From IMG/VR virus record IMGVR_UViG_3300042391_000035, positions 1 to 20,002 of that record: a DNA stretch of 20,002 nt. One strand, given 5' to 3'. Source of the DNA: a virus. The stretch's first letter is position 1. The number at the start of each line of letters is the position of its first letter. The notes under the pieces were generated by a model. The model searched no databases. It saw only the letters and a list, made by a program, of their open reading frames with translations, and was not told where the DNA came from. A program made the translations under genes and the position numbers. Below are positions 3,234 to 17,876 of the stretch, piece by piece.

Positions 3234-3234
<1 letters not shown>
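2887..3234 (+). CDS. Small beta-rich baseplate/fibre-associated protein
   Basis: This 115-aa protein starts at GTG 2887 with ACGGAGGA just upstream and overlaps the neighbouring genes by one base on each side. It has the pattern FRIYQGDTF near residue 8, alternating beta strands ([33 protein letters not shown]) and a closing strand [13 protein letters not shown]. This resembles the N-terminal beta domains of phage upper-baseplate or fibre-anchor proteins (BppU-like). The family name is by resemblance, not proven. It is coupled to the collagen-like fibre that follows and could be its anchor on the tail. Confidence 0.7.
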
Positions 3235-5517
<2,283 letters not shown>

Positions 5518-5522
<5 letters not shown>

Positions 5523-8180: not shown

Positions 8181-8198
8181 TATGATACAATCTGGGCA
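8163..8198 (+). promoter_or_regulatory. Putative leaderless promoter for the glycosyltransferase
   Basis: A -10 element TACAAT (8186-8191) preceded by TG at the extended -10 position (TGATACAAT) follows a -35-like TCGTCA (8163-8168) by 17 bases. Exactly six bases separate the -10 from the ATG at 8198, so transcription would start on or beside the start codon. No Shine-Dalgarno lies before that ATG, consistent with a leaderless message as is common in Actinobacteria. Confidence 0.5.
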
Positions 8199-9265
8199 TG
8201 GTAAAGATAGCAGTGTACGCCATTGCCCTCAATGAGGCAAAGCACGTAGCTCGCTGGGCCAAGGCCACAGCGGGTGCTGATGTAAGAATTGTAGCAGATA
8301 CTGGGTCAACAGACAACACAGTACAACTGCTCAACCAATACCGCATAGAGACCTACGAGATCAACGTAAGCCCTTTTCGCTTTGATGATGCCCGTAATGC
8401 AGCCCTAGCCCTAGTGCCTGCTGACGTGGATGTGTGTGTCTCCTTGGACATGGACGAGATTCCAGACCCAGACTTCTTTGACAAGATCAGGGATGCTTGG
8501 GTTCCAGGCACGGAACGTGCATGGGTTGCATGGGATACTGGCCAGCAATGGATGAATAACAATAGGGTTCATGCCAGGCAGGGATACCGCTGGGTTAAAC
8601 CGTGTCACGAAGTGACAATGGCTTATCCACCACGGCAAGAGCAAGATGTAGTCATAGAGACCATGGTGCAACATAAGCCAGATGATAGTAAGCCAAGGTC
8701 ACAGTACCTGCACTTACTGCAAATGGGAGCTGCTGAGGATCCATCAGATTCCCGCATTAGATTTTACCTTATCCGAGAATACTACTTTCACAAGCAATGG
8801 GAGAACGCAGTCCATGAAACAGAAAGACTCTTCTCTGATAAGCGAGTGGAAGGTGGCTGGCCTGTTGAGCTTGCTGCCGCTTGTCGCGGTGCTGGCGATA
8901 GTCTTGTCGAACTAGGCAGACACGATGAGGCATACGATTGGTTCCTCAAGGGAACTGAACTAGCCCCAGACCAGATGGAAGCATGGTTTGCTTTAGCCCA
9001 CTTCCTGTATACACAGAAACGCTGGCAAGAATGTTTTGATGCGGCTAATAAAGTAAACAAACTTAAAATGGATACTCATTACTTGATTGACAGTTCAATC
9101 TACAAGTGGCGAGCATATGATCTTTTAGCTATATCTTCCTGGAACCTAAGTAAAAAGGGTTCGGCTAAAAAATGGGGACGGCTAGCAGTAGAGGGAAACC
9201 CTACGGATAAACGACTCATTGATAATTACCAATTCATGCTGAAGGGACATACTAATGGCATGTAG
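8198..9265 (+). CDS. Family 2 glycosyltransferase with C-terminal TPR-like helices
   Basis: This 355-aa protein transfers a sugar from a nucleotide-sugar donor. The N-terminal GT-A fold shows the entry motif AIALNEAKHV (residues 8-17), the nucleotide-binding ADTGSTDNT (33-41) and the metal-binding DMD (84-86, in SLDMDEIPD). Residues about 150-345 are helical with TPR-like repeats (DSLVELGRHDEAYDWFLKG and MEAWFALAHFLYTQKRW). No signal or membrane segment is seen, so it acts in the cytoplasm. Possible acceptors are virion proteins or host surface glycans, the latter as modification against superinfection. It has an apparent own promoter and overlaps the next gene by 11 bases. Confidence 0.85.
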   Translation: MVKIAVYAIALNEAKHVARWAKATAGADVRIVADTGSTDNTVQLLNQYRIETYEINVSPFRFDDARNAALALVPADVDVCVSLDMDEIPDPDFFDKIRDAWVPGTERAWVAWDTGQQWMNNNRVHARQGYRWVKPCHEVTMAYPPRQEQDVVIETMVQHKPDDSKPRSQYLHLLQMGAAEDPSDSRIRFYLIREYYFHKQWENAVHETERLFSDKRVEGGWPVELAAACRGAGDSLVELGRHDEAYDWFLKGTELAPDQMEAWFALAHFLYTQKRWQECFDAANKVNKLKMDTHYLIDSSIYKWRAYDLLAISSWNLSKKGSAKKWGRLAVEGNPTDKRLIDNYQFMLKGHTNGM

Positions 9266-16787: not shown

Positions 16788-16827
16788 GAGGGTCACTTGG
16801 TACTTCGGTATCAGGTGGCCCTCTTTT
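16788..16827 (+). terminator. Rho-independent terminator ending the structural/lysis operon
   Basis: A 16-bp uninterrupted stem (16788-16803 with 16808-16823, including three G-U pairs) is capped by a TTCG tetraloop closed by C-G and followed by TTTT (16824-16827). It starts ten bases after the last lysis gene stop. This is the clearest regulatory structure in the window and separates late genes from the DNA-metabolism module. Confidence 0.93.
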
Positions 16828-16962: not shown

Positions 16963-16987
16963 AGCCAGTTTGCATTGTGCACTGGCT
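16963..16987. promoter_or_regulatory. Inverted repeat, possible operator over the nuclease promoter
   Basis: AGCCAGT (16963-16969) and ACTGGCT (16981-16987) are perfect 7-bp inverted arms around an 11-base centre that itself contains GCA/TGC. The centre holds the -35-like TTGCAT of the putative promoter. A dimeric repressor bound here would block polymerase. As RNA it would also form a stable hairpin on read-through transcripts. Confidence 0.5.
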
Positions 16988-17006
16988 GGGTGTACAGTGT
17001 GTGGCA
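16970..17006 (+). promoter_or_regulatory. Putative leaderless promoter for the DNA-metabolism module
   Basis: TTGCAT (16970-16975) and TACAGT (16993-16998) are 17 bases apart, and seven bases separate the -10 from the ATG at 17006. No Shine-Dalgarno precedes that ATG. The layout matches the promoter before the glycosyltransferase (8163-8198). A second candidate -10, TATACT (16919-16924), lies upstream but has a poorer -35. Confidence 0.45.
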
Positions 17007-17200
17007 TGGGAATAATAAAAGAAACAACGATAGGACATAGATCCTTCTCGTCATTTACATCCTGGGTCAAGTGCGGTAAGTCATGGCAACTTGAACGGGA
17101 GCTGAAGGTACCCACTGATACAGCGTGGTACTTTGTCGGAGGGTCAGCCTTCCACCTAGCAGTAGAGCGTTACCTCAAGGGGGAACTACCTGATGCTTAA
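17006..17200 (+). CDS. Cas4-like Fe-S exonuclease, N-terminal part (split gene)
   Basis: A 64-aa product matches the start of Cas4/RecB-like PD-(D/E)XK nucleases: HRSFSSFTSWVKCGKSWQ contains the first cluster cysteine (C23), followed by the His motif GGSAFHLAVERYL (H50). It ends in GELPDA and TAA exactly where related proteins continue into the catalytic core, which is encoded in the +1 frame by the overlapping gene at 17193. ATG 17006 was chosen because it fits the conserved start and the promoter spacing. Alone it cannot be an active nuclease. It either pairs with the second product or is joined to it by frameshifting. Confidence 0.72.
   Translation: MGIIKETTIGHRSFSSFTSWVKCGKSWQLERELKVPTDTAWYFVGGSAFHLAVERYLKGELPDA
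17177..17183 (+). promoter_or_regulatory. Strong internal ribosome binding site at the nuclease split
   Basis: AAGGGGG lies nine bases before the ATG at 17193 and inside the first half-gene. It supports genuine re-initiation for the second half rather than a plain frameshift error. The same G-run could also stimulate frameshifting. Confidence 0.55.
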
Positions 17201-17876
17201 CATCAAACTATTATGGGAGCAAGCTTTCAATGAAAGCATTGGTGCCGAGCAAGAGAAGTATGGCACTAACCCTGTTGATTGGAAAGCATCTGGTAGAACC
17301 AGCAAGGCTTGGCCTAACAAAGAGAACGGTGACTGGTGGGCTGAAAAGGGACCAGAGATGGTCGGTAACTTCATTGACTTCTGGGAGCAGTCAGGCTGGC
17401 AGGTATGGGAAACACCTGAAGGTATCAAGGCTATTGAACTACAACTCAACATTGACTACGGTGACGTACGTATCAAGGCTTTCGTTGACCTTGTTGCTGT
17501 TACCCCTGATGGTGAACTTGTAGTCATTGACTTTAAGACTGGTGCAAACATGCCAACCAATGCAATGCAGCTAGCGCTGTATGCCTGCAGTATCGAGAAG
17601 CAGTTTGGCATACGCCCAAGTCAGGGCTATTATTACGACGCACGCAATGTCATGCTGTTACCAGCCGAAGGCTTTAACAACTGGACATACCCACTGTTTA
17701 CTGAACTGTTTAGGCAGTTCGAGTTTGCAGTAGAGAACAAGATCTTCTTACCAAACTTGAGCATGATGTGTAGCTATTGCTCAGTGAAAGACTTTTGCTA
17801 CGCATACGGCGGAGACTTCAAGGATGCCGTAGATCCATTAGCACTAATCGCACACCCAAAGGAAACAAATGTTTAG
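17193..17876 (+). CDS. Cas4-like Fe-S exonuclease, C-terminal catalytic part (split gene)
   Basis: This 227-aa product carries the PD-(D/E)XK core: IELQLNIDYGDVRIKAFVDL (D99), VVIDFKTG (D113, K115) and QLALYAC (Q126, Y130), the order seen in RecB-family/Cas4 nucleases. The C-terminal CSYCSVKDFC supplies three cluster cysteines (193, 196, 202); the fourth is in the preceding 64-aa product. Such enzymes degrade or trim DNA ends in phage replication and recombination. The start overlaps the upstream stop by eight bases. In the +1 frame the two parts would join as GELPDA to NIKLLWEQAF. A split with both halves functional, a programmed frameshift, or a sequencing/assembly error are all possible. 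Confidence 0.85.
   Translation: MLNIKLLWEQAFNESIGAEQEKYGTNPVDWKASGRTSKAWPNKENGDWWAEKGPEMVGNFIDFWEQSGWQVWETPEGIKAIELQLNIDYGDVRIKAFVDLVAVTPDGELVVIDFKTGANMPTNAMQLALYACSIEKQFGIRPSQGYYYDARNVMLLPAEGFNNWTYPLFTELFRQFEFAVENKIFLPNLSMMCSYCSVKDFCYAYGGDFKDAVDPLALIAHPKETNV

Follow-up and report, generated by a model that had tools for sequence, protein, structure and literature searches.

The Cas4 proteins carry four cysteines, one of them N-terminal and three C-terminal. Among the described systems closest to the locus reported here, the Cas4-family exonucleases of actinophages (phrog_1870 / PF12705; D29 gp69, GaugeLDP gp69 and a Cutibacterium phage exonuclease) are, in the cases sampled, made as one polypeptide of about 265–315 amino acids (aa), and several of them are encoded upstream of a DnaB-like helicase gene. 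The Argonaute-associated Cas4 family ACE1 (9IAB, 9IAC) and the AdnA nuclease domain (6PPU, 9NP6) are either a single chain or a domain at the C-terminus of a helicase. The open-access literature that was searched treats nucleases of the Cas4-like type as single-chain enzymes, and no description of a split one was found in the open-access full texts. The four-cysteine module has been described in a phylogenomic study of Cas4, in which short or disrupted sequences were discarded and the word 'split' is not used (PMC5704561). In the present work we have analyzed a stretch of 20,002 nucleotides (nt), referred to as the window, which comprises positions 1 to 20,002 of the 20-kb virus record IMGVR_UViG_3300042391_000035 from IMG/VR. 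Two adjacent open reading frames (ORFs) of this window very probably specify, as judged from sequence and modelled structure, a two-subunit PD-(D/E)XK exonuclease of the phage Cas4-like (RecB-family) type with an iron-sulfur (Fe-S) cluster, the two genes being translated separately. Uncultured bacterial viruses of a widespread group encode their Cas4-like nuclease as two genes in this manner, with the predicted cluster ligands and the predicted active site divided between them. The features of the locus are as follows:

17006 to 17200, plus strand: ORF A, the N-subunit, 64 aa; start ATG at 17006, stop TAA at 17198-17200.
17072 to 17074, plus strand: codon of Cys23, the predicted first Fe-S ligand, on the N-subunit.
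17153 to 17155, plus strand: codon of His50, the predicted active-site residue in GGSAFH, on the N-subunit.
17177 to 17183, plus strand: AAGGGGG, a Shine-Dalgarno-like site for the C-subunit, within ORF A and 9 nt 5' of the ATG of ORF B.
17193 to 17200, plus strand: ATGCTTAA, the 8-nt overlap that holds the start of B and the stop of A.
17193 to 17876, plus strand: ORF B, the C-subunit, 227 aa; ATG at 17193, +1 frame relative to A.
17769 to 17798, plus strand: codons of Cys193, Cys196 and Cys202, the predicted remaining Fe-S ligands, on the C-subunit.

The product of ORF A contains the motifs S-x-S / W-V-K-C23-G and G-G-S-A-F-H50-x3-E (the active-site His helix), and that of ORF B contains the KAWPNKENGDWW motif, VDL (D99), DFK (D113-x-K115), QLxxY (Q126-L-x2-Y130) and C193-x2-C196-x5-C202. 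The catalytic set H, D, (D/E)-x-K, Q-x3-Y is thereby complete across the pair, with H on A and the rest on B, and the four cysteines, one N-terminal and three C-terminal to the core, are likewise divided between A (C23) and B (C193, C196, C202). The original prediction, made from the letters and their ORFs, had placed C23 and the His motif on the 64-aa product and the D-x-K core with the other three cysteines on a second, +1-frame product, with AAGGGGG before the second start and an overlap of eight bases, and all of these placements hold.

In profile searches, ORF A matched phrog_69 (E-value (E) 3e-10), and ORF B matched phrog_1870 (E 3e-35) and PF12705 (50.4 bits, cut-off 22). As proposed in the original prediction, the pair was compared with unsplit homologues, and the halves align, A before B, to consecutive and non-overlapping segments of the same exonuclease profiles, viz. 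positions 88-140 (A) and 145-328 (B) of the 501 in phrog_69, and 13-60 (A) and 79-292 (B) of the 313 in phrog_1870. Against the latter profile A scored 32 bits, B 123 bits and the joined read 159 bits (E 2.8e-46), and the joined read scored 69.1 bits against PF12705 (cut-off 22). A and B thus jointly match one continuous phage Cas4-like exonuclease. The actinophage enzymes have the same motifs and the same four cysteines, and they align over their full length with both halves in order. The CRISPR Cas4 proteins (8D3L, 4IC1, 4R5Q; PF01930) likewise combine a PD-(D/E)XK fold with four Fe-S cysteines, which are predicted ligands here; however, the nuclease reached only 17.3 bits against PF01930, under the cut-off of 22.7.

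The structure predicted by AlphaFold for A and B read as one chain, which was made by a four-letter step (GGGG=G) with a few linker residues changed, had a mean predicted local distance difference test (pLDDT) value of 86.9 and a predicted template modelling (pTM) score of 0.84. In mixed alignments that included C-only rows the short N-part was misaligned, and these alignments were excluded from folding. In this model the break corresponds to residues 59-65, which form a loop between helices 41-58 and 66-85. The best Foldseek match in BFVD was the Cas4 family exonuclease of Streptomyces phage WRightOn, which was aligned end to end over 288 columns (template modelling (TM) scores 0.74/0.76), and the best matches in the PDB, also aligned end to end, were ACE1 (9IAB), AdnA, Dna2 and then Cas4. 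The E-values for ACE1 and AdnA, the best matches among solved structures, ranged from 1e-9 to 1e-6, at about 11-18% identity. It could be argued that the C-subunit works alone and that the N-subunit is a regulator outside the catalytic domain, as the C-subunit has D, D-x-K and Q/Y and folds by itself with fair confidence (pTM 0.72). We consider this quite unlikely, since the invariant His and one of the four invariant Cys sit on the N-part, and the same segment belongs to the domain in continuous homologues. With B alone, moreover, the Foldseek E-values and TM-scores were weaker, including a drop in TM to 9IAB and AdnA. The pLDDT of the Cys region was about 86-92 in the joined model and 52-56 in the model of B alone.

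When IMG/VR was searched at the protein level, 18 loci were obtained, and the split was retained in all 15 close relatives with enough upstream sequence, none of them being continuous, which is the opposite of the outcome by which the two-polypeptide reading could have been overturned. Together with three more IMG/VR scans with alignments and the named-phage records, the set comprised 247 loci. Both parts were present in 174 of these after removal of identical copies; 104 were split with the halves adjacent, 24 were split with the halves apart and 46 were continuous. Hence, in contrast to the single polypeptide that characterizes PF12705/phrog_1870 exonucleases, the window has two ORFs, as do 128 of the 174 loci, a proportion that is not a census because only the best 80 loci per IMG/VR scan were kept. 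A C-part without an N-part was seen in 8 loci only, each starting at most 45 nt from a contig end. A DNA-level search of the phage collection gave no match, and the first genome scan found no relative; the second gave one continuous copy, in Lentzea, which is probably phage-derived, and the other loci checked in it were mostly helicase-nuclease proteins. Although a one-base indel is able to produce a +1 break, the probability of an assembly or sequencing indel is negligible, as the split recurs with different junction sequences in independent assemblies from many different metagenomes, as had been proposed as a check, and in the phage record OX376640.

The OX376640/OX376641 pair (L085; Caudovirales sp. 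ct2KA10) was the only split noted among the named phages read. These deposited phage records contain the split nuclease but are wholly unannotated, and they represent a possible physical source of it. Separately, in one close relative (L015:2806-3345 and downstream) the C-terminal cysteine region of the C-subunit has been lost through an internal deletion, which may reflect either an artefact of assembly or a broken copy.

The residues S15, S17, C25 and H52 of the N-part and D98, D112, K114, Q125, Y129, C192, C195 and C201 of the C-part (query numbering, where C25/H52 correspond to C23/H50 of A and the C-part positions are one below the B numbering) are essentially invariant across the 174 loci, in split and continuous forms alike. 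Both halves are under purifying selection, with ratios of nonsynonymous to synonymous substitution (dN/dS) in the window clade of 0.055 (A) and 0.041 (B). The N- and C-part distances are also correlated in each split clade (Mantel r 0.82, 0.95 and 0.98; the continuous yardstick gave 0.82). These observations bear upon the proposal that the gene is broken, with one or both halves a remnant and the nuclease dead. The continuity of the sampled cultured actinophage homologues (GaugeLDP, D29, Anaysia, Hiro, Success) would fit such a proposal, but we regard it as highly improbable, because the catalytic and cysteine residues are invariant in both halves across three deep clades, the dN/dS values are low in both, and no replacement for the nuclease was seen in the contigs searched. 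No PF12705 protein besides the two halves was detected in OX376640 or in five split contigs (35-41 kb), hence the sequence searched contains no spare copy. The split is therefore real, and both the sequence error and the inactivated gene that had been put forward as alternatives are refuted by its recurrence and by the selection acting on both halves.

The original prediction had also allowed for a programmed +1 frameshift at GCT-TAA-C, by which the two ORFs would be fused into one protein. The overlap in the window is short, a +1 step at the stop would yield the full-length protein, and the relative frame is +1 in many loci with adjacent halves. However, in L006, L007, L009, L010 and L016 the codon that follows GCT or GTT is not a stop; A is two codons longer, the A-B overlap is 14 nt and the frames are still separate, so that the proposed shift site is lost while the split is kept. 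In other lineages the junctions are ATGA (L067, L077, L170, L220) or TAATG (L084), both of which place the second ORF in frame +2, or, in the L070/L079-L083 lineage, an in-frame TAG directly followed by TTG (L070:2986-2991, L079:1563-1568, L080:2944-2949, and also L082 and L083), where the relative frame is 0. All three relative frames thus occur. In view of these junctions, and of the Shine-Dalgarno sites that precede the C start in many lineages, a programmed shift is very unlikely.

The halves-apart loci provide further evidence in this regard. In these 24 loci the N-part ends past the His-bearing helix and the C-part begins at the following helix, and in most of them one to three other small genes lie between:

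L018 and L019: a 59-aa zinc-ribbon-like ORF.
L021: a 62-aa ORF.
L026-L038 and L184: two or more small ORFs, a related zinc ribbon included.
L081: a 35-aa CxxC ORF.
L117, L145, L155, L175 and L234: ORFs of about 71-109 aa.
L109: ORFs of 107 aa and 218 aa.
L169: at least 134 nt, without a convincing ORF.

As whole ORFs separate the halves in most of these loci, no shift can join them. A joining in trans, by a split intein or by trans-splicing, would likewise restore a single chain. It is extremely unlikely, as there is no room for intein halves, the products ending and beginning right at the break; in the window lineage A extends only a few residues past the His helix and B starts at the next helix. 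No Rfam intron family was present in the ten sources scanned, and no direct evidence of trans-acting joining was found. Among the inserted ORFs scanned, no homing endonuclease match was obtained.

A small, conserved zinc-ribbon-like protein (CPCGxD...CxxC) is encoded between the halves in two lineages (L018:687-869, L019, L032:515-730, L029:2578-2805, L035 and L184). The two copies scanned had no Pfam or PHROG match, and this protein could either act as a third partner or be unrelated cargo.

No Shine-Dalgarno sequence is found upstream of ORF A, and the following pair precedes it:

16970 to 16998, plus strand: TTGCAT-17 nt-TACAGT, a conserved -35/-10-like pair found by eye, ending 7 nt 5' of the ATG of A.

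Across the window and its relatives (L013, L020, L021, L022) this pair has a spacing of 17-18 nt and ends 6-7 nt before the ATG, with TTGACA in L013. It was not among the listings of a consensus promoter scan; it is a probable promoter, and its distance of 6-7 nt from the ATG suggests that the mRNA of A may be near-leaderless. A strong terminator-like hairpin (16788-16823) lies just upstream of this putative promoter. The C start, in turn, is preceded by AAGGAG-like Shine-Dalgarno sites in many lineages, several of them distant, and AAGGGGG of the window is replaced in relatives by AAGGGAG or AAAGGAG. The start/stop overlap ATGCTTAA is compatible with translational coupling, which is a known arrangement in phages at overlapping starts and stops, e.g. 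UAAUGA of nrdA/mobE (PMC2988022). Taken together, the varied junctions, the use of all three frames, the inserted genes and the Shine-Dalgarno sites argue for two independently translated subunits and not for a programmed +1 shift.

Based upon these results, a two-polypeptide Fe-S nuclease, which was the leading possibility in the original prediction, draws support from the recurrence of the split in close relatives and in three clades, from purifying selection and from the intervening genes. In the proposed mechanism, the 64-aa subunit would contribute helices one to three, together with the active-site histidine and the first of the cluster cysteines, and the 227-aa subunit the PD-(D/E)XK core and three cysteines. 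Translation of the second gene would begin at a ribosome site of its own, be coupled to that of the first gene, or both. We infer that both proteins are made and that they associate non-covalently into one Cas4/AdnA-like nuclease domain, in which 1+3 binding of the cluster across the subunit interface is expected. Its most likely role would be to process DNA ends when the phage replicates and recombines its genome, alongside a DnaB-like helicase and a RusA-like resolvase. Some considerations weigh against this proposal. The chain modelled by AlphaFold was joined artificially and its alignment was derived from continuous homologues and N-halves; the lower confidence for the C-subunit alone may partly stem from a different alignment, hence the drop in its pLDDT is only suggestive. 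The L085 lineage lacks a clear Shine-Dalgarno site before the C start, so that coupling is assumed there, with re-initiation after the A stop being likely. Finally, the TAG-TTG junctions of the L070/L079-L083 lineage would also permit stop read-through to give one chain.

In the phylogenetic tree the split loci formed three groups (the window with L026; L066 with L085; and L067) with continuous lineages between them, corresponding to three state changes. However, a tree constrained to a single split clade was not rejected (approximately unbiased (AU) test, p 0.41). Continuity is probably ancestral, because the cultured phage homologues that were read (those of the five actinophages named above and of two Cutibacterium phages) are all continuous. 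A more speculative scenario, which we consider doubtful, is that the gene was broken at the same point independently in as many as three lineages and that the 1+3 insertion of the Fe-S cluster serves as an assembly step or switch tying activity to the Fe-S supply of the host, with the zinc-ribbon protein maybe a third component in some lineages.

In a profile scan of some of the window ORFs, a DnaB-like helicase (phrog_243) and a RusA-like resolvase (phrog_244) of a replication block were located near the nuclease and downstream of it; the position ahead of the helicase gene is shared with several of the actinophage exonucleases. The major head protein of the window matched phrog_1357. Two other genes of the window were also noted:

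3234 to 5522: a long collagen-like protein with a GxTGPTG repeat and a C-terminal non-repeat domain, probably a tail or fibre component.
8198 to 9265: a glycosyltransferase (phrog_13126, beta-1,4-glycosyltransferase, E 1.6e-75), in the structural half of the phage.

For the annotation of viral genomes, the 64-aa half is easily overlooked and the 227-aa half resembles a truncated Cas4 without the first cysteine. A natural and conserved two-gene form in which each chain has predicted ligands would supply a ready-made split Fe-S nuclease. It would allow direct tests of whether the cluster holds the nuclease domain together, of how phages time their nuclease and of the stability of gene fission in viruses. 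Fe-S clusters that are common to two chains occur elsewhere, in the nitrogenase Fe protein and in photosystem I. With respect to gene organization, working phage genes-in-pieces include NrdA of Aeh1, 43A/43B of Aeromonas phage 25 and the T4 topoisomerase gp39/60; the split NrdA is fully functional, and 43A and 43B co-purify (PMC2988022). The likeness to these lies in one enzyme being derived from two ORFs whose products reassemble, as is proposed for the nuclease, and, as in these cases, the gene is continuous in relatives and split here with both parts under selection. The described examples involve homing endonucleases or an untranslated insert and are confined to a few phages, whereas the nuclease split occurs in three clades, no homing endonuclease was found in the inserted ORFs scanned, and the predicted Fe-S ligands are divided. 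By sequence and predicted fold, the nuclease is thus a member of the Cas4-like exonuclease family that departs from it in the single-chain feature, and, without the usual homing endonuclease, it mechanistically resembles the genes-in-pieces of other phages.
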